Positions 7,866 through 26,040 of a stretch of DNA of 33,616 nucleotides are shown here, piece by piece. Location: contig NZ_LR732487.1 of NCBI RefSeq assembly GCF_902506425.1, positions 1 through 33,616 on the forward strand, in the 5' to 3' direction. A model generated the notes under the pieces. It worked only from the letters and a program-made list of their open reading frames with translations, had not been told where the DNA came from and ran no database searches. The first letter of the stretch is position 1. Every line of letters starts with the position of its first letter. The stretch is from Novosphingobium sp. 9U (GTDB taxonomy: Bacteria; Pseudomonadota; Alphaproteobacteria; Sphingomonadales; Sphingomonadaceae). Made by a program: the position numbers and the translations under genes.

Positions 7866-7890
7866 GGAACACCCCACATTTTCATCCGTT
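7866..7890 (+). promoter_or_regulatory. Candidate EcfG (general stress sigma factor) promoter 1
   Basis: GGAAC (7866-7870), 16 bases, then CGTT (7887-7890) matches the alphaproteobacterial EcfG consensus GGAAC-N16/17-CGTT exactly. Transcription would start near 7897 and run into the DUF4136 lipoprotein gene at 8120, leaving a leader of about 220 bases that includes the 12-codon frame at 7901. Confidence 0.6.
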
Positions 7891-7900
7891 GATCGTGCAA

Positions 7901-7939
7901 ATGGCGCTCGTCATCGCGCGTAAGCATTCCTACATCTGA
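7901..7939 (+). other. Possible 12-codon leader peptide
   Basis: ATG at 7901 opens a frame MALVIARKHSYI ending in TGA (7937-7939). It lies a few bases after the predicted start of the EcfG-type transcript, so it would be almost leaderless. There is no independent support for translation; it may be a chance frame. Confidence 0.2.
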
Positions 7940-8119
7940 AAGCGGCGGCAGGCGAAATCGAAGGATGGTGGACATGCCCATGTCCGAAGGCTCAATCTGC
8001 CGTGTAACTGCCTCTATTCAACCGGTATTCAGCCGCGATCGGCTAAGACTCGACTCAATGTCGAGCCCGCCGCGTCGAGAGGATGGCGCCGCTCCGCTCG
8101 ACTCCTGGAGAACAGAACC

Positions 8120-8818
8120 ATGAAAATGAATGGCAACAACCGCTTCGGCCGGCTTCGGGTCGCGGCCGTAGCGGTGCTGCTGGTCGCGCTCGCCGCTTGC
8201 ACGAACACATTCCGCGCAGACGTCTCCCGCTTCCAATCGCAGCTGCCCGCCCCGGCGGGCCAGACCTTTGCCGTGGTGGCGGACGATCCGCAGATGGCCG
8301 GCGGTATCGAGTTCAGCCAGTACGCTCGCCTGGTCGAGGCGCGGCTGGCGCAGAAGGGCTACACGCCCGCTGCCAGCCCCGAGCAGGCGCAGCTGCTGGT
8401 GCGCTTCGACTATGGCGTCGACAAGGGCCGTGAGCGCGTGCGCTCCACCGGCTTTGGCGGCGGTTACGGCGGCTGGGGTCCTTGGTACGGCTACGGCGGC
8501 GGCTTCGGCCGTGGCGGTTACTGGGGCGGACGCGGCTTCGGCGGCTGGGGCGGTGGTCCCTGGCGCTATGGCTGGTACGATCCCTTCTTCGACAACGGCG
8601 TCGAGAGCTACACCGTCTACACCAGTGGCGTGTCTCTGAAGATCGATCGCCGCGCCGACGGTGCCCGCCTGTTCGAGGGCAAGGCGGAGGCGGTTTCGTC
8701 CTCCAACCGCCTGCAGTATCTCGTCCCGAACCTGGTCGAGGCGATGTTCACGAACTTCCCCGGGAACTCGGGAGAGACCATGCGCATTACCGTCGCGCCA
8801 GAGAAGACGAAGAACTAA
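8120..8818 (+). CDS. DUF4136-domain lipoprotein
   Basis: The 232-residue protein starts with a lipoprotein signal ending in the lipobox LAAC (VALLVALAAC-type, Cys near residue 32), so it should be anchored in the envelope. A DUF4136-like domain follows (FAVVADDPQMAGGIEFSQYARLVEARLAQKGYTP, then QLLVRFDYGVD, and a final SLKIDRRADGARLFEGKAEA block). The middle, roughly residues 110-160, is an insertion very rich in Gly, Tyr, Trp and Arg, a feature of many sphingomonad members. The function of the domain is unknown. GGAG lies about 11 bases upstream of the ATG. It stands alone, with a candidate EcfG promoter upstream and a strong terminator downstream, so a stress-related envelope role is plausible but inferred. 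Confidence 0.88.
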   Translation: MKMNGNNRFGRLRVAAVAVLLVALAACTNTFRADVSRFQSQLPAPAGQTFAVVADDPQMAGGIEFSQYARLVEARLAQKGYTPAASPEQAQLLVRFDYGVDKGRERVRSTGFGGGYGGWGPWYGYGGGFGRGGYWGGRGFGGWGGGPWRYGWYDPFFDNGVESYTVYTSGVSLKIDRRADGARLFEGKAEAVSSSNRLQYLVPNLVEAMFTNFPGNSGETMRITVAPEKTKN

Positions 8819-8846
8819 CGGACTCCCCCGAGAGGGAGACACCGAG

Positions 8847-8882
8847 GGACGGGCCCGCTGAAAGGCGGGTCCGTCCTTTTTT
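8847..8882 (+). terminator. Rho-independent terminator of the DUF4136 gene
   Basis: GGACGGGCCCGC (8847-8858) pairs with GCGGGTCCGTCC (8865-8876) with a single G-T wobble and a 6-base loop, followed by six T residues. It closes the lipoprotein transcript. Confidence 0.92.
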
Positions 8883-8983
8883 GTGCCCGTCGCACGCATC
8901 CGTGGTTAACAGCCAGCTGGCACGCAACTGCCTGCGTCCGCTTAAATAATTGTGATATATTGCTTAACTTGCCTTTTGGGGCA

Positions 8984-9008
8984 GGAACATTAGTTATGAA
9001 CACATGTT
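8984..9008 (+). promoter_or_regulatory. Candidate EcfG promoter 2
   Basis: GGAAC (8984-8988), 16 bases, then TGTT (9005-9008), that is GGAAC-N17-GTT, one base away from the full consensus. It lies 40 bases upstream of the esterase start, giving a leader of about 35 bases. The preceding stretch (8941-8970) is unusually AT-rich for this genome. Confidence 0.55.
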
Positions 9009-9048
9009 CATCCGACCAGGGACCGGGGGCACCGGAGTATTGGTCCGC

Positions 9049-10140
9049 ATGAACAATCATCTGATCTTGAGCATGGCGTTGCTGCTTGGCACGTCGACAT
9101 CGGCCTTTGCACAATCAGCCATGTCGCCCAATGCGCCTCCACCGCCGCCACCCGCCGTAGCCGCGACCCAGCCGGCGCAGGCCGCTGCCGACATGCAGGC
9201 GGTGCTCGATGCCCACGCATCGCTCGCGCCCAAGCCGATCGAGACGCTGACACCAGCAAAGGCGCGCCTCCAACCCAGCCCGGCGGACGCCGCCAAGAAG
9301 GTCATGCGCGAGAAGGGCATGTCGACCGCGCCCGATCCCGCCGTCACCACCAAGGACGTCGCTTACGGGGCGGACCCGATGCAGTTCGCGCGCATCTACA
9401 CGCCGGCCGCCACGGTCGGCGCCGGAGCGCCGCTGCCGGTGGTCGTCTACTATCATGGTGGCGGCTGGGTGATCGCCGACGTCAACACGTATGACGCGAC
9501 GCCGCGCCTGCTCTCCAAGCAGCTGAACGCTATCGTCGTCTCGGTCGAGTATCGCCACGCGCCCGAGTTCAAGTTTCCTGCTCAACACGAGGACGCAGCC
9601 GCGGCCTATCGCTGGGTGCTCGCCAACGCAGCCAGCTGGGGCGGCAATCCCGCTAAGGTCGCGCTCGCCGGTGAGAGCGCGGGCGGCAATCTTGCCGTTG
9701 CGACCGCCATCTATGCGCGCGACAACGGGCTGACCAAGCCGCTTCATGTGCTCTCGGTCTATCCGATCGCCAACAGCGACATGCAGCTGCCGTCCAGGAT
9801 GGACTCGGCGAACGCCAAGCCGCTGAACACGCCGATGCTCAAGTGGTTTGGCAATTACTACTCGAAGACGCCTGCCGACATGGCCGATCCGCGCCTCAAC
9901 CTGGTTGCGGCCGATCTGCGCAACCTGCCGCCCACGACCATCATCAACGCGCAGATCGATCCCTTGCGCTCGGATGGCGAGACCCTGGCGACGGCGATGA
10001 AGAAAGCCGGCGACAGCGTCGACCAGAAGACGTTTCCGGGCGTGACGCACGAGTTCTTCGGGCTCGGGAAGGTTGTGCGTGGAGCCTACGACGCCGAGCT
10101 CTATGCCATCGCCAAGCTCAAGAAGGCGCTGCTCAACTAA
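9049..10140 (+). CDS. Secreted alpha/beta-hydrolase of the hormone-sensitive lipase type (esterase)
   Basis: The 363-residue protein has an N-terminal signal peptide (MNNHLILSMALLLGTSTSAFAQ), a Pro/Ala-rich stretch, and then an alpha/beta-hydrolase domain. The oxyanion-hole motif HGGGW begins at His136. The nucleophile Ser210 sits in GESAGG, the acid Asp304 in IDPLRSDG and the base His334 in GVTHEFFG, so the catalytic triad of the GDXG lipase family is complete. The natural ester substrate cannot be told. I prefer the ATG at 9049 to the one at 9004: it begins the signal peptide and GGAG lies 11 bases upstream. The DUF4142 gene follows after 23 bases and is probably cotranscribed from the EcfG-type promoter at 8984. 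Confidence 0.9.
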   Translation: MNNHLILSMALLLGTSTSAFAQSAMSPNAPPPPPPAVAATQPAQAAADMQAVLDAHASLAPKPIETLTPAKARLQPSPADAAKKVMREKGMSTAPDPAVTTKDVAYGADPMQFARIYTPAATVGAGAPLPVVVYYHGGGWVIADVNTYDATPRLLSKQLNAIVVSVEYRHAPEFKFPAQHEDAAAAYRWVLANAASWGGNPAKVALAGESAGGNLAVATAIYARDNGLTKPLHVLSVYPIANSDMQLPSRMDSANAKPLNTPMLKWFGNYYSKTPADMADPRLNLVAADLRNLPPTTIINAQIDPLRSDGETLATAMKKAGDSVDQKTFPGVTHEFFGLGKVVRGAYDAELYAIAKLKKALLN

Positions 10141-10163
10141 GCGCATTCCTCAAGGAGAGTGAC

Positions 10164-10643
10164 ATGAAGATTCTTGCCTATGCCCTGCCGATGACCCTGG
10201 CCTTGTCGGGCACTGCCTATGCCCAGGCGATGACCTCGGCCGAATACGTCGCCGCTGCCGCGGCGGGCGACACGTACGAGATACAGTCGAGCCAGACGGT
10301 GCTGCAGACCACGCAGGATCCCAAGATCCGCTCGTTCGCGCAGATGATGATTCAGGACCACACGAAGAGCACGGCCAAGCTCAAGGCCGCGGCGCTGACC
10401 GCCAAGGTCAAGGCCAAGCCCATGCTGATGCCTGCGCAGGCGGAAATGATCGCGCAGCTCAAAGCCGAGACTGGCGCCGCGCGCGACCAGGCATATGTCG
10501 CGCAGCAGAAGCAGGCGCACAGCCAGGCGCTGACGATCCATCAGAGCTATGGCATGGATGGCAAGAACGTGGCGCTTAAGATGGTGGCCAACGGCGTGGT
10601 GCCGGTGGTGCAGCACCATATCGAAATGCTGAAGACGATGTGA
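10164..10643 (+). CDS. DUF4142 secreted protein (ferritin-like helical domain)
   Basis: The 159-residue protein has a signal peptide (MKILAYALPMTLALSGTAYA) and a four-helix DUF4142 domain: AEYVAAAAAGDTYEIQSSQ, then the family hallmark FAQMMIQDHTKSTAKLKAAA, and a closing helix that ends VQHHIEMLK. Members are periplasmic or exported, widespread in proteobacteria and often found in stress regulons; their biochemical role is not established. A strong AAGGAG lies about 6 bases before the ATG. It follows the esterase closely, so the two probably form one unit. A 12-base inverted repeat follows the stop. Confidence 0.88.
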   Translation: MKILAYALPMTLALSGTAYAQAMTSAEYVAAAAAGDTYEIQSSQTVLQTTQDPKIRSFAQMMIQDHTKSTAKLKAAALTAKVKAKPMLMPAQAEMIAQLKAETGAARDQAYVAQQKQAHSQALTIHQSYGMDGKNVALKMVANGVVPVVQHHIEMLKTM

Positions 10644-10650
10644 TCGAGGC

Positions 10651-10679
10651 CGTCGTCCCGGACTTGATCCGGGACGACG
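10651..10679. repeat. REP-like palindrome (CCCGGACTTGATCCGGG type)
   Basis: A perfect 12-base inverted repeat (CGTCGTCCCGGA / TCCGGGACGACG) around a CTTGA loop. Hairpins with the CCCGGACTTGATCCGGG core are common dispersed elements between genes in alphaproteobacteria. There is no T run, so it is not a standard terminator, although it may protect the 3' end of the DUF4142 transcript. Confidence 0.75.
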
Positions 10680-10737
10680 TAGTCTTCTGCAATCCTAGCC
10701 CATACCGTGGGACAAACGAGCGCCAGTCCTTGATCGA

Positions 10738-11208
10738 CTAGTTCCCCAGCGAGACCACCCCGCCGGTGGAACCGAACCCGCCCTCGCCCCGCTCGGTGTG
10801 GTCCAGCTCGTCCACCTTGAGCCAGCTCGCGCGGGTCACCGGGGCCAGCACGAGCTGCGCCACGCGGTCGCCTCGCCGGATGTCGAAGGCTTCGGCGCCG
10901 TGGTTGATCAGGATGACCTTCAGCTCGCCGCGATAGTCGGAATCGATCGTGCCGGGCGTATTGGGCACGGTGATGCCGTGCTTCAGCGCCAACCCTGAGC
11001 GCGGGCGCACCTGGATCTCGAACCCGGGCGGGATGGCGAAGGCGAGACCCGTCGCCACCGCGTGGCGCGCGCCCGGCGCAAGCATCACGTCCTCGGCGGC
11101 GAGCACGTCCATCCCCGCTGCACCTTCGGTGGCATAGCCAGGCAGCTCCAGCCCCTCGAAGTGCGGCAGGCGCTTGACCCGGACGGGGACGGGATCAGGC
11201 GAGTGCAT
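10738..11208 (-). CDS. dut: Deoxyuridine 5'-triphosphate nucleotidohydrolase (dUTPase)
   Basis: Dut hydrolyses dUTP to dUMP and pyrophosphate, keeping uracil out of DNA and supplying dUMP for thymidylate synthesis. The 156-residue product shows the trimeric dUTPase motifs in order: [37 protein letters not shown] with the catalytic aspartate, [14 protein letters not shown], and the C-terminal P-loop-like [11 protein letters not shown]. The ATG at 11208 lies inside the last codons of coaBC (14-base overlap), so the pair is translationally coupled at the end of the ubiE-ubiB-coaBC-dut cluster. Confidence 0.97.
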
Positions 11209-12430
11209 CGGCAATCCTTTCGACCAGCGCGCGGGCGACCTGGTCCTTGGGCATCTCGGGCAAGCTGTCGACGCCGCCCTCGCGCACGATGTGCACGGTG
11301 TTGGCATCGCCGCCCATGACATCGCCCGAAACATCGTTGGCGACGATCCAGTCGACTTGCTTGCGCAGGCGCTTGGCTTGCGCATGGGGGATGACGTCGT
11401 TGGTCTCGGCCGCGAAGCCGATGACGAGACCAGGCCGGTGCGGGCTGGCTGCGAGCCTGGCGAGGATGTCCGGATTCTCGGTAAGGGAGAGCGGCTCGGG
11501 CGCGGTGCCCGCCTTCTTGATCTTGCGGTCGGCCACCGAGACCGGCCGCCAATCGGCGACAGCGGCGACCATCACCGCGACATCGGCTGGGAGCGCGGCG
11601 TCCACTGCGGCTTCCATCTCGCGCGCACTCTCGACATCGACACGCTCTACGCCGGGCGGCGTTGCCAGGTGGACCGGGCCGGCGACCAGCGTGACCCGCG
11701 CGCCCGCCTCTGCCGCCGCCGCGGCGATAGCGAAACCCTGCTTGCCCGAGGAGCGATTGGCAATGTAGCGCACTGGATCGATCGGCTCGTGCGTCGGGCC
11801 GGCGGTGACGAGCACGTGGCGGCCGTAGAGCGGGCGGTGTGGAGCGGCTTCGAAATCCGGCTGACCCTCAAGCGGCTTGGTCCCGAGCGCCTGCCGGATG
11901 TGCTGCCAGATCGCGGGAGGCTCGGGCAGGCGGCCAGGGCCGAACTCACCGCAGGCCATCGGCCCCTCGTCGGGCTCCACCACCGTCACGCCAGAGGCGC
12001 GTAAGGTGGCGACGTTGCGCTGAGTGGCGGCATGCTGCCACATCCGCACGTTCATCGCCGGCACGGCCAGCACCGGCTTGTCGGTGGCGAGCAGCAGCGT
12101 GGTCGCCAGGTCATCGGCCATCCCGGCCGCCATCTTGGCCATCAGGTCGGCCGTCGCCGGGCAGACCACCACGAGGTCGGCCTGACGCGAGAGCTGGATG
12201 TGGCCCATCTCGGTCTCGTTCTTGAGGTCCCACAAGGTGGTGTAGACCTCGTTCTCGGACAGCGCGGCGAGCGTCATCGGGGTGACGAAGTGGCTGCCGC
12301 CCTCAGTCAGCACGCAAGTCACCGAGCCACCTTCCTTGCGGATCAGGCGCACCAGTTCGCAGGCCTTGTAGGCCGCGATCCCGCCTCCGATCACGAGCAG
12401 GATGCGCGGGGAGGAATGGGTCTCAGGCAT
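11195..12430 (-). CDS. coaBC: Bifunctional phosphopantothenoylcysteine decarboxylase / phosphopantothenate-cysteine ligase
   Basis: Catalyses two steps of coenzyme A synthesis: joining cysteine to 4'-phosphopantothenate (CoaB, CTP-dependent) and FMN-dependent decarboxylation (CoaC). The 411-residue protein has the N-terminal flavoprotein CoaC half ([28 protein letters not shown], and [13 protein letters not shown] with the active-site cysteine) and the C-terminal CoaB half from about residue 190 ([27 protein letters not shown]). I chose the ATG at 12430, not the longer frame from 12493, because [17 protein letters not shown] matches the family's usual start. It is followed by dut with overlap and preceded after 84 bases by the membrane protein gene. 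Confidence 0.97.
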
Positions 12431-12514
12431 GGCGCAGGCTTGTGCAACACGGGGCTGCGGGGTGCAATGGGGTTCCACCGACGCTGCTTGCACCCAACCC
12501 GTCCGGGAAGTGGG

Positions 12515-13684
12515 CTAGCGCAACCGCGCAGCCTGCCACATCGATCCCAGTGCCCGCGGCGCGAAGGCCAGCCCCGCCGTCAACATCGGCGCCACCATCG
12601 CGCCCCAGTAGAAGTTGTCCCAGCGTCCGGCGAACATGAACAGCACGCCATAACCGATCGCGATCAGGAATCCGAACAACCCGGCAGGCGTGCGCCATCC
12701 TGCCCAGCCGAGCGTGGTGAGGATCACCAGCGGCCCGGCGAGCCAGTGCGGCAGCAGGCGCAGGTTGCTCGATCCCCCGACGTTCCCGAGCCAGCCCGAA
12801 AGGCCGCGGAACGCCCACCAGCTCGGCCCTTGCGGGTCGCTCGGCAGCACTTGCGGTGCGATCAGGCTGAGGTGCCAGGCAAGGACGCCCAGGAACACTG
12901 TGACCAGCACGCCCCACGCCGCAGCCTCGCGCCACTCGCGCCGCCAGAGTGCAAAGGCACCCATCAGCAGGACGAACGGTAGCGAATGCTCGCGGATGAA
13001 CAGCGCCAGCGCGGCGACCGCGAAGGTAGCGATCCACCGCCCCGGCCGATCTTCGTCGCGCACTCGGTGGAGGCCGAACGAGAGCATCAGTAGCATGCCC
13101 GCCCACAGCTCGTGCAGGGAGTAGTAGTGCCGGTTCAGCATCAGCGAGGCACCGACAAAGGCCATCGCCGTCGCCACCTTGCGCAACCGACCGACGCCGG
13201 GCTCCTCGCCGAACCGCCGCCACCAGGCCCAGATCGTCGCCAGCATCAGCGCGATGGACGCCGCCACGCCCAGGCGCAGCGTGTTCAGGCCGGCTTCGAT
13301 ATAGGCGAGCGTCGGCAGCCGCACCGACAGGCCGGGGCGAACCGGATAGTCACGCAGGCGGTGCTCCTCGACAATGAAGCCGTAGTAGTTCTGCCCTGCC
13401 TGCACCTTGCGGATCACGGCATCATAGAGGGCGATATCTTGATCGTATTCCTCGGCGCCGAGCACCGGTTTTCCATCATAACGCGTGGTGACGTTGGCGC
13501 GCATGCCGGCCGGATCCTCCAACGGCACCAGCGCCGAAGCGACCAGCAGCGCCAGCAGGACCAGCAGGGCCAAGCGTGCCGGCCACATCGGCCAGTGTGC
13601 GAAGCGATCCCAGGCGGGTGCGGGTTGACGCGGGGCTGCAGCCTCGGCGGCTAGCCCAGCAGTCCCCACAACGACAGCACCCAT
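12515..13684 (-). CDS. Multi-pass membrane protein of unknown function (GT-C glycosyltransferase-like topology)
   Basis: About 389 residues with some nine or ten hydrophobic segments. After a short Ala/Pro-rich start and a first membrane helix (ARLALLVLLALLVASAL) there is an extracytoplasmic loop of about 70 residues. It contains Asp- and Tyr-rich sequence (YDQDIALYDAVIRKVQAGQNYY) and ends in DYPVRPGLSVRLPT. A large first loop with acidic residues, then helices joined by short loops (LNRHYYSLHELWAG, IREHSLPF), resembles GT-C membrane glycosyltransferases. That is a topology argument, not a family match. The start is uncertain: ATG at 13684 overlaps the end of ubiB by 34 bases. It sits between ubiB and coaBC on the same strand, so it is probably in that operon. 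Confidence 0.65.
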   Translation of the reverse strand: MGAVVVGTAGLAAEAAAPRQPAPAWDRFAHWPMWPARLALLVLLALLVASALVPLEDPAGMRANVTTRYDGKPVLGAEEYDQDIALYDAVIRKVQAGQNYYGFIVEEHRLRDYPVRPGLSVRLPTLAYIEAGLNTLRLGVAASIALMLATIWAWWRRFGEEPGVGRLRKVATAMAFVGASLMLNRHYYSLHELWAGMLLMLSFGLHRVRDEDRPGRWIATFAVAALALFIREHSLPFVLLMGAFALWRREWREAAAWGVLVTVFLGVLAWHLSLIAPQVLPSDPQGPSWWAFRGLSGWLGNVGGSSNLRLLPHWLAGPLVILTTLGWAGWRTPAGLFGFLIAIGYGVLFMFAGRWDNFYWGAMVAPMLTAGLAFAPRALGSMWQAARLR

Positions 13685-15219
13685 ACGGCCAGACCTCCGC
13701 CCACAGCGGCGCCAGCGTATCCCAGCCAATGGTTATTTTGCCGTTTACGACGCGCCCAGATCAGCTCGACCGGCGGCAACGGCGCCTGCTCGGGCGCGCC
13801 ACCCTTGGGCGGGTACTTCTCCTCGATCCGGCGGACCAGATCGGGCAGACGCAGCAGCGTGTCGACATCCTTGCGCAGGCGCTCGGCGATCCAGGCTTCG
13901 GGGCCCAGCTCGTCACGAATCCAGTTGCGCACGAACGGCGCGGCGACGTCCCACATGTTGATCGACGGATCGAGCGAAGTCGCCAGCCCCTCGACCATGA
14001 CCATGGTCTTTTGCAGCAGCAACAGATGCGGCTGCGTCTGCATGTCGAAGTCGCGCGTGATCGCGAACAGGCCGTCGAGCATCTGCCCGACCGACAACTC
14101 GCTCACCGGCTTGCCGCGCATCGGCTCGCCCACGGCCCGCAGCGCGGTCGCGAATTCCTCGACTGAGTGGTAGCTCGGCACATACTGCGCCTCGAAGTGG
14201 ATCTCGGCAACGCGGCGGTAGTTGCCGGTGGTCAGGCCATAGAGGATCTCGGCCAGCCACTGGCGCGCCTGACGATCGATCCGGCCCATGATGCCGAAAT
14301 CGATCGCGACGATGGTCGCCGCACCGTCCGCGCTCGGCTGCACGAACAAGTTGCCCTGGTGCATGTCGGCATGGAAGTAGCCGGCGTTGATCGCCTGGGT
14401 CAGGAACGCGAGCACCAGCCGACGCGCCAGCAGCGGCTTGTCGATGCCGGCGGCATCCAGCGCCTCGCGGTCGCTGATCTTGATGCCGTCGATCCACTCG
14501 ACCGTCATCACCTTGCCGTTGGTGCGATCCCAGTCGATATCCGGAACGCGGTAGCCCTCATAACCCTTCATCGCCTCGGCCAGCTCGGAGGCCGAGGCGG
14601 CCTCGCGCCGCAGGTCGAGTTCGCGCAAGGTCCAGCGCTTGAGGTTGGCAATCACCGCACGCGGGCGCAGGCGTGAGGCCTCACCGCCGAGCGCTTCGAG
14701 ATGCGCGGCAGCCCATTCGTACGTCTCGATATCGCGCGAGAAGCGCTCGCGCACACCCGGGCGCAGCACCTTGACTGCGACGGTCCGGCCTTGGGCGCTG
14801 GTCGCCCGATAGACTTGCGCGATCGAGGCCGAGCCGATCGGGGTCGGCTCTACGCTGGCGAATAGCCGCTCCAGCGGCGCGCCGAAGCTGTCCTCGATCT
14901 CGCGCTGGACGCGTTCGAACGGCAGCGGCGGCAGTTGGTCCTGCAGGCTGAGCAGATTGCGCGCGGCTTCCTCACCGACGAGATCGGGCCGGGTGGCGAG
15001 CGTCTGGCCCAGCTTGATCGCAGCCGGGCCGATCTCCTGGAAGGCACGCGCATAGTCCGGCACGCGCGGTTGCCTGGCACCCAGGCGCGCGATGCGGCAC
15101 AGGCGGCGCACGGGAAGCGGCGTGTTGCGCCCTTCCTCGATGATGCGCAGCGCCCCGTGCCGCGCGAGTACGCGGCCCCACTTGAGTAGGCGAAGGATGT
15201 GGGTGGCGGGGCGGGTCAA
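13651..15219 (-). CDS. ubiB: UbiB-family atypical kinase/ATPase for ubiquinone synthesis
   Basis: UbiB is a membrane-anchored member of the atypical protein-kinase-like ADCK family. It is an ATPase required for ubiquinone synthesis, probably helping hydrophobic intermediates reach the Ubi enzymes. The 522-residue product has the family KxGQ motif (AAIKLGQTLATRPDLVG), the Ala-rich nucleotide loop IGSASIAQVYRA, the invariant lysine in VAVKVLRPG, the catalytic-loop FHADMHQGNLFV and the metal-binding AIDFGIMG. It ends in a C-terminal membrane helix pair (YAGAAVGGGLAVWVLSLW). I prefer the TTG at 15219 over the TTG at 15240, because GAGG lies 7 bases upstream and the protein then begins MTRPATHILRLLKWGR. 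ubiE lies upstream on the same strand, separated by a repeat element. Confidence 0.95.
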   Translation of the reverse strand: MTRPATHILRLLKWGRVLARHGALRIIEEGRNTPLPVRRLCRIARLGARQPRVPDYARAFQEIGPAAIKLGQTLATRPDLVGEEAARNLLSLQDQLPPLPFERVQREIEDSFGAPLERLFASVEPTPIGSASIAQVYRATSAQGRTVAVKVLRPGVRERFSRDIETYEWAAAHLEALGGEASRLRPRAVIANLKRWTLRELDLRREAASASELAEAMKGYEGYRVPDIDWDRTNGKVMTVEWIDGIKISDREALDAAGIDKPLLARRLVLAFLTQAINAGYFHADMHQGNLFVQPSADGAATIVAIDFGIMGRIDRQARQWLAEILYGLTTGNYRRVAEIHFEAQYVPSYHSVEEFATALRAVGEPMRGKPVSELSVGQMLDGLFAITRDFDMQTQPHLLLLQKTMVMVEGLATSLDPSINMWDVAAPFVRNWIRDELGPEAWIAERLRKDVDTLLRLPDLVRRIEEKYPPKGGAPEQAPLPPVELIWARRKRQNNHWLGYAGAAVGGGLAVWVLSLWGLLG

Positions 15220-15256
15220 AGAACGACCTCGTGCCGCCAAGCCACGAGCCCGCTAA

Positions 15257-15369
15257 CTCCCCTCCCGCCTGCGGGAGGGGTCGGGGGAGGGCTTGTCAGC
15301 CTTCCACCTGTCGCTTGGGTGAGAGCACACAGGCTTTCACCCAGCCCTTCCCGCAGGCGGGAGGGGGGT
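15257..15369. repeat. Composite palindromic element between ubiE and ubiB (copy D)
   Basis: The left part holds a perfect 10-base inverted repeat, CCCCTCCCGC (15259-15268) and GCGGGAGGGG (15271-15280), followed by TCGGGGGAGGGCTTG. The right part is its mirror: CAGCCCTTCCCGCAGGCGGGAGGGG. The whole 113-base block can therefore fold end to end. Similar CTCCCGCnnGCGGGAG blocks are dispersed in sphingomonad genomes. It lies inside a predicted operon and may act on mRNA stability or termination between ubiE and ubiB. Confidence 0.75.
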
Positions 15370-15400
15370 AAGTGGACTTGCGGCCTTCGGCGCAAGAGAT

Positions 15401-16132: not shown

Positions 16133-16194
16133 GAGGTGAGCCTTAGAGGGTTTGCGGCTCAGCGCAAAGGGTTGCACCAGCCTGTCTCTACTTC

Positions 16195-16253: not shown

Positions 16254-16328
16254 CAGGCTCAGGGTGAACTGCCGATTTCGACCGGCAGTCGAGACACCGC
16301 ACGCAACGTATCCTATATACAAAGCCAA

Positions 16329-17537: not shown

Positions 17538-17546
17538 CCTGATTCG

Positions 17547-17562: not shown

Positions 17563-17583
17563 TGACTAGTACGGATAGAGAAC

Positions 17584-17612: not shown

Positions 17613-17986
17613 CGTTGCACCAATGCCGCAGCGCAGCACTTGGTTTAGCAAAGTCCCGGAATTGCTGCGATTCGACTGACTGCAGCAGCGAAGTACCTGT
17701 TTTCTTTGCGCAAATTTTTATATTAAGGTTTTGCGTCAGTCTTGGCCGTGTCAACGCCAAATAGTTTTTATTTTTGGGGACGCGCTCTTGCCTTGGCCGT
17801 TCAAGCCTACCTAGAACGGACCTCGGCCGCAGCGGAAACGTCGGTCGGGGTCGAATACGAAAGCACGGATCAGCAAGGTTGCAGACAGCGTCTGCCGCCT
17901 ATGGCGAAGTCTTGCCCTTTCTATGGAACCTCGATGCGGATGGTGCGGTACAAGATGGGCAGCTTCAACAGCAGGAGGCGGTTCGG
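17613..17986. other. 374-base leader region of dnaA
   Basis: The stretch around 17700-17775 is the most AT-rich in the window (CAAATTTTTATATTAAGG; AATAGTTTTTATTTTTGGGG) and probably holds the dnaA promoter, although I cannot fix -35 and -10 boxes. I see no cluster of DnaA boxes (TTATNCACA), so it does not look like oriC. An 82-codon open frame (17742-17990) runs through it and overlaps the dnaA start. A long leader is of interest because dnaA translation in Caulobacter is controlled through its 5' leader. Confidence 0.5.
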
Positions 17987-17990
17987 ATGA
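17742..17990 (+). other. Possible upstream open reading frame overlapping dnaA
   Basis: A frame opening at TTG 17742 (or GTG 17748) runs 82 codons and ends in a TGA sharing bases with the dnaA start codon (ATGA, 17987-17990). The predicted peptide (Phe/Tyr/Trp near the start, Arg-rich end) resembles no family I know. Third-position GC content looks lower than in the neighbouring genes, and there is no Shine-Dalgarno site at its start, so it may be a chance frame. The overlap geometry is what translational coupling would need. Confidence 0.2.
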
Positions 17991-19480: not shown

Positions 19481-19667
19481 CGCCTGATCGGGCCTTCAGG
19501 ATTTCCGGCACTTTCGCCCGCCCCGCCGGGATTTTACCAACTGATTCCTTGGCATAATTGAAACTCATCGTCCTGCTGTCGTTCTCTTGTCCAAGGGACT
19601 GAGCTAAGCGCGACTCCCTCAAAAAGGCCCGTAAGGGTCGCACGCAAGTTTGGGAGTTTCGCGCGGC

Positions 19668-20507
19668 ATGCGCTTCTACAAGGCGACGCAGTTCCTGTTT
19701 CCACGCAGCTTCGAGCTGCGGCTGCTGACCATCTGCTTCCTGGCGGTCCATGTCCCACTGATCGCTTGCATCGCGTTCAGCGCGGCGACCTGGCACTGGC
19801 AGGCGGACACGCTGCTGGTGATCCTGCTGGCGACGCTGCTCGGCACGGCGGGGGGCGTCGCCGCGATCCATGCCCTCCTGGCCCCACTCACCGCAGCGAC
19901 GGGCATGTTGCGCTCGATCCAGAAGGGTGAGCGGGTGGACGAGATCCCAGTCGGCGGCGAGGATCTGGTCGGCCGGCTCCTGCGCGGCGTGACCCAGGCG
20001 GCCAACGATGCTGCGGATCGCTCGGAAGAGCTGACCATCGTCGCTGAGCACGACTCCCTCACCAAGATCCTCAACCGCCGCGGCTTCCTGCGCGCGGCCG
20101 AGCGCGCGCTGGTTGGGGATCGGCCCGCGGTGCTGGCCTTGATCGACCTCGATCACTTCAAGACCATCAACGACCATCTCGGCCATGCCGCCGGCGACGA
20201 ACTGCTTCATGCCTTTGCCCAGCGCATGAGCACGGTCATTCGCCAGTCCGACATCTGCGCCCGCTGGGGTGGCGAGGAGTTCGCAGTGCTGCTGCCGGGT
20301 GCCAACCTCAGCCAGGCCCATGACGCCATCGAGCGCCTGCGCAGCTCGATCTCGCGCCATCCCTTGCCCGGTGTCGGCCTGACCTTCTCGTGCGGACTTG
20401 CGGCGACCGCAGGTTCGGCCGAGCTCGACGACACCGCCCGCCGCGCCGACAAGGCGCTCTATTCGGCCAAGCACCACGGCCGCAATCGCATCGAGGCTGC
20501 CGAGTAG
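19668..20507 (+). CDS. Membrane-bound diguanylate cyclase (GGDEF domain)
   Basis: Makes the second messenger cyclic di-GMP from two GTP. The 279-residue protein has two membrane helices (about residues 20-45 and 50-75), a short linker resembling a HAMP segment (LLAPLTAATGMLRSIQKGERVDEIPVGG), then a GGDEF domain. The active site reads GGEEF in RWGGEEFAVLLPG, a functional variant. RQSD five residues earlier is the inhibitory I-site (RxxD), so product inhibition is likely. No extracytoplasmic sensor domain is present. I chose the ATG at 19668; GGGAG lies 11 bases upstream, and a TTG at 19650 is possible. It lies 187 bases after dnaA on the same strand. Confidence 0.92.
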   Translation: MRFYKATQFLFPRSFELRLLTICFLAVHVPLIACIAFSAATWHWQADTLLVILLATLLGTAGGVAAIHALLAPLTAATGMLRSIQKGERVDEIPVGGEDLVGRLLRGVTQAANDAADRSEELTIVAEHDSLTKILNRRGFLRAAERALVGDRPAVLALIDLDHFKTINDHLGHAAGDELLHAFAQRMSTVIRQSDICARWGGEEFAVLLPGANLSQAHDAIERLRSSISRHPLPGVGLTFSCGLAATAGSAELDDTARRADKALYSAKHHGRNRIEAAE

Positions 20508-20578
20508 CGGCCCCGCGCCTCCAAGCTGCTGCGCCCGGCCACCTTTCCAAGCCCCCGGCGCTGTTCTATGCGCCGCGC

Positions 20579-21007
20579 ATGACATCCGCCGCCGCCGCCC
20601 CGCCCGGGATCGCCCTGCCCGCCTCGTTCTGGCAGGCGGCACAGCGCGGCGCTTTGTGCCGGTGCCCACGCTGCGGCGAGGCGCGCCTGTTCACCAAATG
20701 GCTGAAGCCGGCCGCACACTGCCCGGCGTGCGGGCAGGACTGGTCGCACCAGCGCGCCGACGACTTCCCAGCCTACCTCGCGATCCTGGTCACCGGTCAT
20801 GTGCTGGCGCCGATCATGATCGCGCTGGCGCTCGATACCGAGCTCCCCCCTGCAGCGATCCTCGCGCTGTTGGTGCCCAGTTCGGTGGCGATGATGCTGG
20901 GCATGCTCCAGCCGGCGAAAGGAGCGGTGATCGCGGCGCAGTGGTGGCATGGGCTACATGGCTTCACCAAAGAGCGAGCCGGCGAGCGACCAGGGGCCAA
21001 GCCATGA
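20579..21007 (+). CDS. DUF983 small membrane protein with zinc ribbon
   Basis: The 142-residue protein has an N-terminal zinc-ribbon-like pair, CPRCGEARLF and CPACGQDW, followed by two membrane helices (YLAILVTGHVLAPIMIALAL and AAILALLVPSSVAMMLGML). This is the DUF983 layout; the function is unknown. The ATG at 20579 begins MTSAAAAPPG; a longer in-frame reading would overlap the upstream GGDEF gene. Its stop overlaps the start of the ThiF-like gene (ATGA), so the two are translationally coupled. Confidence 0.85.
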   Translation: MTSAAAAPPGIALPASFWQAAQRGALCRCPRCGEARLFTKWLKPAAHCPACGQDWSHQRADDFPAYLAILVTGHVLAPIMIALALDTELPPAAILALLVPSSVAMMLGMLQPAKGAVIAAQWWHGLHGFTKERAGERPGAKP

Positions 21008-21777
21008 GCCTGGCTCCGGATCGCCTCGAGCGCTTTGCCCGTCATATCGTGCTGCCCGAAGTGGGCGGCACCGGCCAAGTCGCGCTGGCAGAGGCGCACG
21101 TGGTGCTTGTCGGCTGCGGTGGGATCGGGAGCCCGGCCCTGCAATACCTCGCCGCAGCCGGCATAGGACGGCTAACGCTGATCGATAGCGACGTCGTCGA
21201 CGTCAGCAACCTGCAGCGCCAGACGATTTTCACGCCGTCGGATGTGGGCCGCGCAAAGGCGGAAATCGCGGCCGAATGGGTGCGGCGGTTTGATCTTGGC
21301 CTCGAGGTCAATGCCATCGTCGAGCGGGTGGGTCAGGGCAACGTGGCGCAGGTCCTCTCCGGCGCTCACCTCGTACTCGACGGCTGTGACAACTTCGCGA
21401 CTCGGCTGCTCGTCTCGGACGCTTGCGTGGCGACGGGCGTGCCGCTGACCAGCGCTGCGATTGGGCGCTTCCAGGGCCAAGTCGCCAACTTCGCGGGACA
21501 CCTTGCGGGCCAGCCCTGCTACCGCTGCTTCGTGGGCGACGCCTTCGATGCCGAGGATTGCGATACGTGCGCAGCCGACGGCGTGCTGGGCGCGATGGCA
21601 GGCATGATCGGCACGTTCGGCGCCATGCAGGCAATCCGGGTGCTGCTCGGCGGGCACGCCGCGCTGGGCGACGATCCGCAGTTCGGCAAGCTGCATCTGG
21701 TCGACGGGCTAGCGCCTTCGATGCGCACGCTCAGCATCGCCAAGGACCCGAGCTGCAAAGGCTGCAGCGGGCGGTGA
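21004..21777 (+). CDS. ThiF/MoeB-family E1-like adenylyltransferase
   Basis: The 257-residue enzyme belongs to the E1-like family that adenylates the C-terminal glycine of small sulfur-carrier proteins (MoaD, ThiS). It has the ATP-binding loop VGCGGIGSPALQYLAAAG, DSDVVDVSNLQRQ, LDGCDNFATR, and the two zinc-binding Cys pairs CYRC and CKGC (the latter near the C-terminus). It has no rhodanese domain, and no MoaD or ThiS gene is nearby, so MoeB and ThiF cannot be told apart; I lean to MoeB-type. It overlaps the DUF983 gene upstream (ATGA) and the DUF1810 gene downstream (GTGA). Confidence 0.9.
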   Translation: MSLAPDRLERFARHIVLPEVGGTGQVALAEAHVVLVGCGGIGSPALQYLAAAGIGRLTLIDSDVVDVSNLQRQTIFTPSDVGRAKAEIAAEWVRRFDLGLEVNAIVERVGQGNVAQVLSGAHLVLDGCDNFATRLLVSDACVATGVPLTSAAIGRFQGQVANFAGHLAGQPCYRCFVGDAFDAEDCDTCAADGVLGAMAGMIGTFGAMQAIRVLLGGHAALGDDPQFGKLHLVDGLAPSMRTLSIAKDPSCKGCSGR

Positions 21778-22184
21778 GCTTCGACCTCGATCGCTTCGTC
21801 GCCGCACAGGAAGGCAGCTACGATGTGGCGCTTGCCGAGATCACGGCCGGAGCGAAGCGCAGCCACTGGATGTGGTACATATTCCCGCAAGTCGCCGGGC
21901 TGGGGCACAGCGCCATGGCGCAGCGTTATGCGATCGGCTCGCTGGCTGAAGCGCAAGCCTACCTGGAGCATCCCCTGCTCGGCCAGCGACTGCGCGAGTG
22001 CGCGGCGGCGCTGGACGGGCTCTCCAACACCAGCGCCGAGCGGGTGTTCGGCGGGATCGATGCATTGAAGTTGCGCTCCTCGCTGACGCTGTTCGAGGCG
22101 GCGGGGGCGGCGTTCGGCTCCACGATCGAGCGCTGGTTTGGTGAACGGGATGCGCGGACCTTGGAGATACTGAGCCAAGCCTAG
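21774..22184 (+). CDS. DUF1810 family protein
   Basis: The 136-residue protein matches the DUF1810 pattern: FDLDRFVAAQEGSYDVALAEI, the hallmark SHWMWYIFPQ, GLGHSAMAQRYAI, HPLLGQRLREC and FGGIDALKLRSSLTLFE. No biochemical role is established. The start is GTG at 21774, sharing bases with the E1-like stop (GTGA), so it should be cotranslated with that enzyme. Its stop lies in a CTAG that also contains the stop of the convergent sirtuin gene. Confidence 0.9.
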   Translation: MSFDLDRFVAAQEGSYDVALAEITAGAKRSHWMWYIFPQVAGLGHSAMAQRYAIGSLAEAQAYLEHPLLGQRLRECAAALDGLSNTSAERVFGGIDALKLRSSLTLFEAAGAAFGSTIERWFGERDARTLEILSQA

Positions 22185-22936
22185 CCTCCTTGAACGGAAG
22201 ATAGGGATCGGACGGTGGGCACAGGAAGCGAGACCAGCATTTCCTCCACCCAGTCCGGCACGATCCGCGTTGCCGGGCCGTGCCGCGCCTCGTCGAACCA
22301 GCCGGTTCCCTGGCTCGGCTCCAGGTTCAGCTCCAGCGTCGCGGCGCCCAGTTCGCGCGCGTTGCGCACGAAGCCGGCCGCGGGATAGACCGCGCCCGAC
22401 GTGCCGATCGACACGAACAGGTCCGCGCTTCGCAAGGCTGCGTAGATCTCGTCCATGCCATAGGGCATCTCGCCGAACCAGACCACGTCGGGCCGCAGCG
22501 CGCGGGCACCGCAAGCGGGGCAAGCCGGCCGGTCGATCAAGGTGCTCGTCCAAGGCGAGCGGGTGTCGCAGGCAGTGCACCAGGCCAGCAGATGCTCGCC
22601 ATGCATGTGCAGCACGCGCCTGGCTCCCGCACGCTCGTGCAAGTCATCGATGTTCTGGGTGACGATCAGCAACTCGCCCGGCCACTCGGCATCGAGCCTG
22701 GCCAGCGCGTGGTGCGCCGCATTGGGCTGCTTGGTCTGGATCGCCTCGCGCCGCATGTCGTAAAAGCGCAGCACCAGGTCGGGATCGCGCGCGAAGGCCT
22801 CCGGAGTGGCGACGTCCTCGACGCGGTGCTGCTCCCACAAGCCACCCTCGGCGCGGAAGGTATCGATCCCGCTCTCGGCGCTGACGCCCGCGCCGGTGAG
22901 GATCACGATGTTGCGGATGGCCTTCATCGCCGCCAT
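22181..22936 (-). CDS. cobB: Sirtuin NAD-dependent protein deacylase (CobB type)
   Basis: Removes acyl groups from protein lysines using NAD, giving nicotinamide and O-acyl-ADP-ribose. The 251-residue product has the NAD-binding GAGVSAESGIDTFR, TQNIDDLHERAG, the HMHGEHLLAWC active-site histidine region and a zinc site (CTAC and CPAC pairs). Tyr59 and Arg62 in FYDMRR form the Y-x-x-R pair that in CobB and SIRT5 recognises succinyl and malonyl groups, so desuccinylase activity is likely. I place the start at ATG 22936; ATG 22927 is possible. It lies head to head with dapB, with 26 bases between start codons. Confidence 0.93.
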   Translation of the reverse strand: MAAMKAIRNIVILTGAGVSAESGIDTFRAEGGLWEQHRVEDVATPEAFARDPDLVLRFYDMRREAIQTKQPNAAHHALARLDAEWPGELLIVTQNIDDLHERAGARRVLHMHGEHLLAWCTACDTRSPWTSTLIDRPACPACGARALRPDVVWFGEMPYGMDEIYAALRSADLFVSIGTSGAVYPAAGFVRNARELGAATLELNLEPSQGTGWFDEARHGPATRIVPDWVEEMLVSLPVPTVRSLSSVQGG

Positions 22937-22962
22937 GAGACACGCGCAAAGGGGAATAGGCA

Positions 22963-23691
22963 ATGAGCAGAATCGGCATCATCGGCAGCGCCGGGCGCAT
23001 GGGCCAGGCGATCGCTGCGGCCATAGCCGAAGCGGACGAGACGCTGGCTGGCGGGATCGACAAGGACGGCGATGTCGCGGCGCTGGCAGCGCAGAGCGAC
23101 GTGCTGGTTGACTTCTCCTCGCCCGGGGCGCTGGAGGGCAATCTCGACGTAGCGGTCGCGGCCGGAGTGCCGGTGGTGATCGGCACGACAGGCCTGGAGG
23201 AGCGGCACCACTTCCTGATCGACCACGCGGCATCCAGCATCCCCGTCCTGCAGACCGGCAACACCTCGCTCGGGGTCACCCTGCTGGCGCATCTGGTGCG
23301 AGAGGCCGCGGGCCGGCTGGGCGAAGATTGGGACATCGAGATCGTCGAGACGCATCACCGTATGAAGGTCGACGCGCCCTCGGGCACGGCACTGTTGCTG
23401 GGCAAGGCCGCGGCCGAGGGTCGCGGCATCGACTTGGCTGCCGATAGCGAGCGCGGGCGCGATGGCATCACCGGAAAGCGCGGCACCGGCACCATCGGTT
23501 TTGCGGCCCTGCGCGGCGGCTCGGTGGCGGGCGATCACTCGGTGCTGTTCCTGGGCGATGGTGAGCGCGTCACGCTCTCGCACCTGGCGGAAAACCGCTC
23601 GATCTTCGCCAAGGGCGCGGTGCGGGCGTGTCAGTGGTTGGTCGGCATGCCGGCGGGGCGGTACACGATGCCCGAGGTGCTGGGGTTGTGA
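22963..23691 (+). CDS. dapB: 4-hydroxy-tetrahydrodipicolinate reductase
   Basis: DapB reduces the cyclic product of DapA to tetrahydrodipicolinate with NAD(P)H, on the way to meso-diaminopimelate and lysine. The 242-residue product has the nucleotide-binding loop IGIIGSAGRMGQAI, the substrate and catalytic signature ETHHRMKVDAPSGTAL, and the C-terminal AENRSIFAKGAVRACQWL. AAAGGGGA lies about 8 bases upstream of the ATG. nth follows on the same strand after 33 bases. dapE of the same pathway is 4 kb away on the opposite strand. Confidence 0.97.
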   Translation: MSRIGIIGSAGRMGQAIAAAIAEADETLAGGIDKDGDVAALAAQSDVLVDFSSPGALEGNLDVAVAAGVPVVIGTTGLEERHHFLIDHAASSIPVLQTGNTSLGVTLLAHLVREAAGRLGEDWDIEIVETHHRMKVDAPSGTALLLGKAAAEGRGIDLAADSERGRDGITGKRGTGTIGFAALRGGSVAGDHSVLFLGDGERVTLSHLAENRSIFAKGAVRACQWLVGMPAGRYTMPEVLGL

Positions 23692-23724
23692 GCTCCGTCT
23701 CTATTGGCGCCGGGACGTAGCTGC

Positions 23725-24384
23725 GTGAACAAGGCCAACGTTTTCGAATTCTTCCGCCGCCTGGCCGAGCTCAACCCAGAGCCCGTCACCGAGCTGGAAT
23801 ACGGCAACGACTACCAGCTGCTGGTCGCCGTGGTGCTCTCAGCGCAATCCACCGACATCGGCGTCAACAAGGCGACGCGAGCACTGTTCCGCGAGGTCAC
23901 CCGGCCCGACCAGATGGTTGCGCTCGGAGAGGAGGGCCTGAAGGAACACATCAAGACGATCGGCCTGTTCAACTCCAAGGCCAAGCACGTCATTGCCCTC
24001 AGCGAGATCCTGGTGCGCGAACATGGCGGCGAAGTGCCGGCCGACCGCGATGCGCTCACCGCCCTGCCCGGCGTCGGGCGCAAGACCGCCAACGTGGTGC
24101 TGAACTCCGCGCACGGTGCGGAGACCTTCGCGGTCGACACGCACATCTTCCGCGTCTGCAATCGCACCGGCCTCGCCAAGGGCAAGACGCCGCTGGCGGT
24201 CGAGCTGGGCCTCGAGAAGAAGGTGCCTGGCCCGTTCCGCGTCGGCGCGCACCACTGGCTGATCCTCCACGGCCGCTACATCTGCAAGGCGCGCACGCCC
24301 GAATGCTGGCGCTGCCCGGTAGTGGACTTGTGCACCTACAAGCCCAAGGTGCTGGAGAAGCCGGGGAAGAAGACAGCACCGTGA
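23725..24384 (+). CDS. nth: Endonuclease III (thymine glycol DNA glycosylase/AP lyase)
   Basis: Removes oxidised pyrimidines and cuts the abasic site. The 219-residue product has the helix-hairpin-helix ALPGVGRKTANVVL with the catalytic lysine, the VDTHIFRV segment with the catalytic aspartate, and the C-terminal 4Fe-4S ligands C-x6-C-x2-C-x5-C (CKARTPECWRCPVVDLC). The start is GTG at 23725 (MNKANVFEFFRRL), with GGGACG about 8 bases upstream. It probably shares a transcript with dapB. A degraded small open frame starts within its stop codon. Confidence 0.97.
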   Translation: MNKANVFEFFRRLAELNPEPVTELEYGNDYQLLVAVVLSAQSTDIGVNKATRALFREVTRPDQMVALGEEGLKEHIKTIGLFNSKAKHVIALSEILVREHGGEVPADRDALTALPGVGRKTANVVLNSAHGAETFAVDTHIFRVCNRTGLAKGKTPLAVELGLEKKVPGPFRVGAHHWLILHGRYICKARTPECWRCPVVDLCTYKPKVLEKPGKKTAP

Positions 24385-24538
24385 GACGCTGGCTGAAGCG
24401 CTTCCGGCTGCGCTACGTCACTACTGCAAGGAACGCTGTTTCATTGGCGCGTCGATCGTGCTGACGGTCCTCTGGGTGCTCTGGTAACTGATCAGCTTGC
24501 TCGGGCCCTTGCTGGAACTGGCGCTGGCCATTTTCTGA
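24381..24538 (+). pseudogene. Decayed small membrane-protein gene after nth
   Basis: A GTG at 24381 shares bases with the nth stop (GTGA) and opens a basic start (MRRWLKRFRLRYVTTARNA) that stops at 24462-24464. From about 24440 the frame one base back reads a hydrophobic segment (FIGASIVLTVLWVLW), then TAA at 24485, then a second hydrophobic segment (LISLLGPLLELALAIF) ending in TGA 24536-24538. A basic start followed by two membrane segments looks like one small inner-membrane protein broken by a one-base loss and an in-frame stop. This is inference; no homologue could be checked. Confidence 0.4.
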
Positions 24539-24565
24539 GTAGCGCCCGCTCGACGTTGCCCGTCG

Positions 24566-25864
24566 CTACTCCTCCCCACTCACCGCCGAGATCACTGTCG
24601 CCGCAACCAGGTCGCCCACGACGTTCAGCGTGGTGCGGCACATGTCGAGGAAACGGTCGACGCCCAGGATCAGGCCGATGCCTTCGGGCGGCACGCCGAC
24701 GCCATGGAGGATCAGGGCGATGACCGGCAGCGATCCGGCCGGCACTCCCGCGGTGCCGACGCCGGCGAGGATGCACACCAGCATGACGAAAGCCTGCTGG
24801 CCCAGGTTCAGGTCCACGCCGAAGAACTGGGCGAGGAACAGCACCGTCACGCCCTCGAACATGGCAGTGCCGTTCTGGTTGGCGGTGGCGCCGATGGTCA
24901 GCACGAAGCGCGCGACCTTGGCCGGCAGCTTCAGCTCGTCTTCGGCAATGCGCAGCGAGGTGGGCAGCGTCGCGTTCGAGCTGGCGGTGGAGAACGCCAT
25001 CACGCTCGCCTCCCGCGTCTCGCGGAAGAACGCGACCGGGCTCTTCCTCGCCACGAACTTGAGCAGCAGCGAAAACACGCCGAACATCTGCAGGCCCAGC
25101 GCCAGCAGCACGACGCCAACATAGGCAGCAAGCTTGAACAGCAGGTCCCAGCCGAACTGCGCGGCCAGGTTGAACATGAAGCAGAAGATCGCGAACGGAG
25201 CGAGCTGGATGACAATGCCGATCAGCTTCATCGCGACTTCAAAGATACCTTCGATCGAGTCCTTCAGCACGTCGGTCTTGGGCGACTGCACCAGCAGGAT
25301 GCCGATACCGAAGAACAGCGCGAAGAACATCACCGCCAGGATGTCGTTCTCGCTCATGGCCGTGATCACATTGGTCGGCACCAGGCTGAGCACGGCTTCC
25401 ACCCCGCTCTTGGCGTCCTTGGAGGCGGCAACGATTCCCGACGCAGCCTTGCCTCCTTGCGCCAGCAGCGCCTGCGCCGCCGCACGATCGACGCCTGCGC
25501 CTGGCCGCAGCACGTTAACCAGCAGCAGCGACAAGGCGACAGCGATGCCGGAGACGATCACCGTGTAGAGCAAGGTCGCGATGCCGACCCGCCGAAGCGC
25601 GCGGATCTCTCCCATTTCGGCAATGCCGATGACGAGCGCGGAGAACAGCAGCGGCAGCACCAGCATGAACAGCAGGCGCAGGAAGACCTGGCCGATCGGA
25701 CCGGTGACATAGGTCACCACAGTCGTGACCCACGGCGCGCCGGCCGCGAACGTATAGACCAGGAGGCCGGAGACCAGCCCGACGACGAAGCCGATCAGGA
25801 TGCGCCATTGGAGGCCGTTCGCATGCGTCTCTACCTTGGGCTGGGGTTGCGCGGCGTCAGTCAT
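24566..25864 (-). CDS. Dicarboxylate/amino acid:cation symporter (SDF/DAACS family)
   Basis: Secondary transporter of the GltP/DctA family that imports acidic amino acids or C4-dicarboxylates with Na+ or H+. The 432-residue protein is hydrophobic throughout and has the family hallmarks: the serine-rich hairpin FSTASSNATLPTSLR, the second hairpin AGVPAGSLPVIALIL, and DRFLDMCRTTLNVVGD, whose Arg normally binds the substrate side-chain carboxylate. The canonical NMDGT ion-binding motif reads NQNGT here (residues 329-333), replacing the sodium-binding Asp with Asn. I chose the ATG at 25864 (MTDAAQPQPK); a longer frame from 26062 would run over the EcfG-type promoter. It is monocistronic. Confidence 0.92.
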   Translation of the reverse strand: MTDAAQPQPKVETHANGLQWRILIGFVVGLVSGLLVYTFAAGAPWVTTVVTYVTGPIGQVFLRLLFMLVLPLLFSALVIGIAEMGEIRALRRVGIATLLYTVIVSGIAVALSLLLVNVLRPGAGVDRAAAQALLAQGGKAASGIVAASKDAKSGVEAVLSLVPTNVITAMSENDILAVMFFALFFGIGILLVQSPKTDVLKDSIEGIFEVAMKLIGIVIQLAPFAIFCFMFNLAAQFGWDLLFKLAAYVGVVLLALGLQMFGVFSLLLKFVARKSPVAFFRETREASVMAFSTASSNATLPTSLRIAEDELKLPAKVARFVLTIGATANQNGTAMFEGVTVLFLAQFFGVDLNLGQQAFVMLVCILAGVGTAGVPAGSLPVIALILHGVGVPPEGIGLILGVDRFLDMCRTTLNVVGDLVAATVISAVSGEE

Positions 25865-26015
25865 GCAGTCAGGCTCTCCGGGCGGCACTTGCGCCGCGCC
25901 GAGCCAAGCAAGGTGGCGGCCACAACGCAAGGCCGCAGTTGCGGGGCATGGACTAACTGGCGAAGAGAGCAGCGCTTCTTCGGTCCATCGCGCCAGGCGC
26001 TCACCCCATCCTTCA

Positions 26016-26040
26016 GGAACTACCCTGGTTATCCCGCGTT
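26016..26040 (+). promoter_or_regulatory. Candidate EcfG promoter 3
   Basis: GGAAC (26016-26020), 16 bases, then CGTT (26037-26040): an exact match to the EcfG consensus with the same spacing as at 7866. Transcription would start near 26047, about 70 bases before the poly-proline lipoprotein gene, and continue into the L,D-transpeptidase gene. Confidence 0.65.

Follow-up and report, generated by a model that had tools for sequence, protein, structure and literature searches.

The 33,616 bp of contig NZ_LR732487.1 (positions 1 to 33,616; contig 19 of the 4.64 Mb, 75-contig genome of Novosphingobium sp. 9U), here called the window, contain three sequences that resemble promoters of EcfG, the sigma factor that acts with PhyR and NepR in the general stress response of alphaproteobacteria. 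Genes were called from codon usage, after training on 254 kb of the strain's own genome, families were assigned with Pfam, and signal peptides and lipoboxes were read by eye from the translations. The candidate promoters and the genes that follow them are:

7866-7890, + strand: candidate EcfG-type promoter 1 (site 1), GGAAC-N16-CGTT, intergenic, 229 bases ahead of the DUF4136 lipoprotein ATG (8120)
8120-8818, + strand: DUF4136 lipoprotein gene (PF13590, 82.3 bits; lipobox ALAAC)
8984-9008, + strand: candidate EcfG-type promoter 2 (site 2), GGAAC-N16-TGTT, intergenic, 40 bases ahead of the esterase ATG (9049)
9049-10140, + strand: gene for a secreted alpha/beta-hydrolase of the esterase/lipase family (PF07859, 207.7 bits, searched from 9052; signal peptide)
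10164-10643, + strand: gene for a secreted DUF4142 protein (PF13628, 99.7 bits; signal peptide)
26016-26040, + strand: candidate EcfG-type promoter 3 (site 3), GGAAC-N16-CGTT, intergenic, 76 bases ahead of the lipoprotein ATG (26117)
26117-26368, + strand: gene for a proline-rich lipoprotein of 83 residues (lipobox; EF-hand-like loop DRDGDGIVDG, by eye; no Pfam match)
26365-27732, + strand: L,D-transpeptidase gene, YkuD and scaffold domains (PF03734 and PF20142, on 26434-27732)

A sequence-only reading of the window had reported the three motifs, and we found them at exactly the coordinates it gave, on the + strand. The gene calls also bear out its statement that they lie between genes, correctly oriented and ahead of genes with signal peptides. 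All three sites have what is expected of an EcfG promoter, namely a GGAAC box separated by 16-17 bases from CGTT or TGTT and a position between genes directed at the downstream gene. The chance expectation of 0.26 that had been given for a nine-base pattern is correct (2 x 33,616/4^9). The strict motif, GGAAC-N16-CGTT, has two matches in the window compared with a mean of 0.19 in shuffled versions of it, and two were reached in 1 of 100 shuffles. Two motif matches that the earlier reading did not mention, GGAAC-N16-TGTT at 23866-23890 (-) and an N18 form at 23943-23969 (+), both lie within the gene at 23725-24384.

The system that would act on these sites is encoded outside the window. On contig C48, nepR is followed by a gene with extracytoplasmic function (ECF) sigma-70 regions 2 and 4 (Pfam), and its divergent neighbour encodes a protein with CHASE and HWE histidine-kinase domains, while phyR is on contig C1, divergent from a second ECF-like gene. 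No EcfG-specific model reached its cut-off for the sigma gene after nepR, and it is the nepR context that identifies this gene as ecfG. The nepR-ecfG operon has its own promoter of the form GGAAC-N16-TGTT (C48:1930-1954). No sigma-factor, NepR or PhyR Pfam match was returned among the 35 called genes of the window, in agreement with the sequence-only reading. PhyR, NepR and EcfG are thus all encoded in the genome, as EcfG-dependent promoters require. The PhyR-NepR-EcfG mechanism is established (PMC6599016, PMC7083833, PMC5898713). By this mechanism, stress would cause phosphorylation of PhyR, which would remove the anti-sigma factor NepR and free EcfG. RNA polymerase carrying EcfG would then bind GGAAC as the -35 box and CGTT or TGTT as the -10 box, and would switch on three envelope units: the DUF4136 lipoprotein gene, the esterase and DUF4142 genes, and the genes for the EF-hand-like lipoprotein and the L,D-transpeptidase.

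The motif given for EcfG of Sphingopyxis granuli TFA is GGAAC-N16-CGTT (PMC7083833), and that for Sphingomonas melonis Fr1 is GGAAC-N17-20-GTT (PMC6599016). The sites in the window share the boxes and spacing of these sphingomonad EcfG (ECF15) promoters, the genome has the same regulators, and the targets likewise include envelope genes.

Placement of the motif in the genome was compared with that of a control, the motif read backwards, for which the first 30 of 76 genome occurrences were placed. Of 44 strict motifs, the two in the window included, 31 are intergenic, compared with 4 of the 30 control sites (Fisher p = 1.2e-6), and 26 of the 44 are ahead of a gene in the right orientation, again compared with 4/30 (p = 9e-5). 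The remaining 18 comprise 13 sites within genes, four that point the wrong way and one with no called gene after it. For GGAAC-N16-TGTT, 12 of 29 occurrences are intergenic, 11 of them facing a gene (p = 0.02 against the control 4/30). The genes that follow strict sites elsewhere, as judged by eye from their translations, include one for a YeaQ/YmgE-like membrane protein that adjoins the general stress response locus, and others for PRC-barrel-like proteins and glycine-zipper lipoproteins.

Among named relatives, the closest one found was Novosphingobium chloroacetimidivorans, in which the DUF4136 protein is 95% identical. Sites 1 and 3 occupy the same positions there and neither box is altered, but the spacer has 17 bases rather than 16 (GGAAC-N17-CGTT). 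Both spacings occur among published sphingomonad EcfG sites (PMC6599016, Table 1). In Novosphingobium silvae, a perfect GGAAC-N16-CGTT precedes the DUF4136 gene (-176 from the match start), and GGAAC-N17-CTTT lies 35 bases ahead of the lipoprotein ATG in the lipoprotein-transpeptidase unit. The positions of site 3 in N. silvae and in the sister species N. chloroacetimidivorans are nearly equal (-387 and -388 from the match start). At a place similar to that of site 2, the N. silvae esterase gene has GCAAC-N17-AGTT and a third close esterase ortholog (G016) has GCAAC-N17-CGTT. GGAAC and GCAAC are listed as the two commonest -35 boxes in S. granuli (PMC7083833).

Sites were scored with a matrix made from 25 of 26 promoters with a motif score of at least 10 from Table 1 of the S. 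melonis study (PMC6599016), one starred gene having been dropped. All three esterase orthologs, that of the strain itself included, have a scoring site (13.4, 12.5 and 14.2). In N. silvae, a site scoring at least 12.5 is found before all three units, and the background at a score of at least 12.4 was 5/118 on the right strand and 1/118 on the wrong strand of sampled 300-base upstream regions, which are shorter than the 320 to 560 bases searched ahead of the units. That EcfG-like sites would precede all three N. silvae units by chance is unlikely, judged from these figures.

Several observations weigh against an EcfG reading of the sites. The strict motif is not in excess in the genome (44 occurrences compared with 76 of the reversed motif), and enrichment is confined to placement. 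In 130 sampled upstream regions from the strain's own genome, matrix hits of at least 10 were as frequent on the wrong strand (6) as on the right strand (5), and weak hits were therefore left uninterpreted. Site 1 is 229 bases from its gene, and EcfG sites in S. melonis are reported as enriched within the first 100 bases (PMC6599016). GGAAC-N16-TGTT lies inside genes in 17 of 29 cases, one of them in the window, and in the 320-base stretch that holds site 2 (score 13.4) a higher hit (14.5) is located inside the DUF4136 gene. Farther from the strain, the sites are mostly absent. A score of at least 13 was reached in only 3 of 30 genus DUF4136 regions, the strain's own included (none on the wrong strand; absent from 27/30), in 4 of 21 transpeptidase regions, again including its own (none on the wrong strand; absent from 17/21), with one of the four (G036) at another place, and in 6 of 78 DUF4136 regions from named genomes (1/78 on the wrong strand; absent from 72/78), the 78 being 80 loci minus two with too short a flank. 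Because of these absences, EcfG control of the units looks like a lineage-specific trait, one of close relatives rather than of the genus.

The lack of enrichment in the raw genome count, together with the single shuffle in 100 that gave two strict matches, is what could be said for all three sites being chance matches in a GC-rich genome. Against this stand the enrichment in placement, conservation through a change in spacer length, and the EcfG-like sites before all three units in N. silvae, and we consider chance a very improbable source of all three. With PhyR, NepR and EcfG present, the same evidence supports the claim that the promoters are of EcfG type. We consider it likely that sites 1 and 3 function as EcfG promoters (very probably), as does site 2 (probably), and that the three units are ordinary, scattered members of a genome-wide regulon, located within the same 18 kb by coincidence. 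Binding, transcription, stress dependence and the roles of the proteins are all things that we infer from sequence.

The case for site 2 is weaker than that for sites 1 and 3, as the TGTT form serves the core nepR-ecfG operon yet lies mostly in genes. EcfG promoters could be limited to sites 1 and 3, with site 2 a chance match and the esterase under another promoter. The gene-internal majority of TGTT-form matches fits this, as does an inverted repeat, GAACA-CA-TGTTC (8998-9009), seen in site 2, which could be a repressor or activator site. However, TGTT forms the -10 box at the strain's own nepR-ecfG promoter, as it does at 13 interlocked genus loci out of the 27 described below, the intergenic share of the TGTT form still exceeds that of the control, and GCAAC-type EcfG sites are found at a similar distance in two close esterase orthologs. 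A TGTT promoter, that of yiaD, is also among the templates that EcfG of S. granuli transcribed in vitro (PMC7083833), and the -10 box accepted there is the one that site 2 has here. A chance origin of site 2 is, in our view, unlikely, and we favour an EcfG promoter ahead of the esterase gene.

For the DUF4136 gene, a second element has to be considered:

8017-8032, + strand: TTCAA-N6-TTCAG, single-copy, upstream of the DUF4136 gene and closer to it than site 1

We take this element to resemble a direct repeat of the kind that response regulators recognise. TTCAA-N6-TTCA is present in 86 of 108 DUF4136 upstream regions (30 from the genus and 78 named loci, with some genomes in both sets), approximately 100 to 150 bases ahead of the gene, and in none of the reversed or reverse-complement controls. 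The full TTCAA-N6-TTCAG has one copy in the entire genome, and was rejected as a regulon marker on that account. The element at 8017-8032 is probably a main, older and EcfG-independent control element of the DUF4136 gene. As the more widely conserved element is also the nearer to the gene, site 1 is probably an added stress promoter, and EcfG may give only a second promoter here.

A stronger form of this explanation has the DUF4136 gene driven by TTCAA-N6-TTCAG, in which the 11-base distance between the direct repeats would suit an OmpR-type response regulator, and has transcription starting nearer the gene and site 1 reduced to a minor or vestigial second promoter. The spread of the element among upstream regions and its absence from the controls favour this, and a strict EcfG site precedes the gene in only 3/30 genus and 3/78 named loci and is far from the ATG. 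Yet the EcfG boxes were retained in the sister species despite an insertion or deletion in the spacer, the site ahead of the N. silvae gene is perfect, and both promoters could work. We regard a minor or vestigial role for site 1 as possible but doubtful, and prefer to see site 1 as an EcfG promoter.

Each of the three units encodes secreted or envelope proteins, as the sequence-only reading had proposed, and envelope genes are reported in the Sphingopyxis EcfG regulon (PMC7083833). The DUF4142 gene begins 23 bases past the esterase gene and, by eye, the gene order is the same in N. silvae, so the two probably form one operon. In N. chloroacetimidivorans, this pair is absent from the corresponding place (window 8819-10737), where two short pieces that match the DUF4142 gene and its end are retained. 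Apparently, N. chloroacetimidivorans lost the pair and a scar was left behind; we rejected a new insertion of the pair in our strain, as the DUF4142-matching remnants suggest loss.

The signal peptide of the transpeptidase is complete only from a CTG start at 26365, which overlaps the stop of the lipoprotein gene, and the protein's match to the NCBIfam L,D-transpeptidase model fell short of the cut-off. The sequence of the CTG junction is identical in N. chloroacetimidivorans. In N. silvae, the transpeptidase ortholog is likewise preceded by a similar lipoprotein gene, as it is at three more (L103, L105 and L106) of the eight loci inspected. The EcfG targets given for S. granuli include an EF-hand gene as well as envelope genes (PMC7083833). 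Going beyond the family names, a role of the three units in remodelling of the outer membrane and peptidoglycan under stress would fit best. Our literature search found no paper that looked relevant to a link of DUF4142 or DUF4136 with EcfG or the general stress response, and the words DUF4136, DUF4142, transpeptidase, esterase and lipoprotein are absent from the main texts of PMC7083833 and PMC6599016.

The sequence-only reading had gone further and placed the three promoters in a local regulon. At the genome's density, 0.32 strict sites would be expected per window and two were seen (P = 0.04, uncorrected), and 0.19 would be expected when only intergenic sites in the right orientation are counted (P = 0.016, uncorrected). 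Two strict sites in the window are thus mildly unusual for the genome's density, and this does not amount to local clustering beyond it. The 26 right-way intergenic strict sites, two of which are from the window, are spread over many places in the genome. Sites 2 and 3 are separated by 17 kb that contain no strict site and mostly housekeeping genes, with families that include dUTPase, flavoprotein/DFP, ubiE, a MutM-type glycosylase, S20, DnaA, DapB and endonuclease III. Since the sites are dispersed and housekeeping genes lie between those in the window, we reject a local regulon and retain regulon membership. The EcfG regulon of S. granuli is likewise reported to be spread, over 79 putative operons (PMC7083833).

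Two weaker candidates, at a score level that is unspecific, are present elsewhere in the window. GCAAC-N17-CGTT lies approximately 120 bases ahead of a Tim44-like gene (3629-4321, - strand), which is followed by an MltA-family gene on the same strand, and GGAAC-N17-GGTT lies approximately 259 bases ahead of the gene at 31584-31967 (+ strand). An mltA gene is among the EcfG targets listed for S. granuli (PMC7083833). Rfam at its gathering thresholds returned no match across the window.

The promoter of nepR-ecfG resembles site 2 in that the strain's own copy is GGAAC-N16-TGTT. It differs from the three sites in the window, none of which has a GGAAC on the opposite strand, in being interlocked with a second such site. 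Between nepR-ecfG and the divergent CHASE/HWE kinase gene lies GGAAC-N17-GTTCC (C48:1930-1956; L032:1930-1956). Read toward nepR it is GGAAC-N16-(C/T/G)GTT across the loci surveyed and, read the opposite way, GGAAC-N16-(G/T/A/C)GTT, such that each -10 box overlaps the opposite -35 box. In a survey of 59 Novosphingobium genomes, 39 of which had a NepR match, 27 of the best 30 of 41 matches carry GGAAC-N17-GTTCC, with all other spacings from 10 to 25 absent. In the family (149 genomes, of which 133 had a match), 29 of the best 30 matches carry it, and the other spacings from 8 to 27 gave a single hit, at one of them. Upstream of nepR, the arrangement was present at 56/60 strong-NepR family loci (L294-L323 and L357-L386) and at 0/20 weak-NepR loci, 13 of which have a one-way site ending GTTTC instead; these 20 were consecutive rows after the strain's own genome with second matches skipped, and the matched frame is interrupted by stops in some of them. 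The strain's own locus and that of N. chloroacetimidivorans, both outside the 60, are also interlocked. By a strict rule, an opposite-strand reading frame begins nearby in 18 of 29 family loci, and the N-termini of these frames resemble, by eye, that of the strain's CHASE/HWE kinase.

We lean towards the view that in much of the family the nepR-ecfG master promoter is two interlocked, opposite EcfG promoters, which could be occupied by one polymerase at a time. EcfG would then divide its output between the anti-sigma and sigma factors on one side and, on the other, a kinase or phosphotransferase whose target is PhyR. In S. melonis, nepR and the neighbouring phyT are both reported as EcfG-dependent (PMC6599016). 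Alternatively, GGAAC-N17-GTTCC could be an inverted-repeat site for a dimeric regulator. The idea that EcfG promoters are generally palindromic or bidirectional was rejected, as CC follows only 2 of the 26 right-way strict sites. In N. chloroacetimidivorans, GGAAC-Nk-GTTCC with k = 17 is not specially common (6 of 41 over nine spacings, by eye). The interlock is a feature of nepR-ecfG plus a few single cases elsewhere. Other single interlocked sites, on both strands, are at C1:579868-579894, C1:2036849-2036875 and C15:30974-31000. No description of the interlocked arrangement was found in the portions of the literature available to our search, and it is more novel than the sites in the window. 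If true, it would allow a direct test of whether a sigma factor shares a promoter with its upstream regulator.

The 26 right-way strict sites provide a target list for testing in this genome. Through the sites in the window, three envelope units of unknown or loosely known role would be assigned to the general stress response of Novosphingobium.

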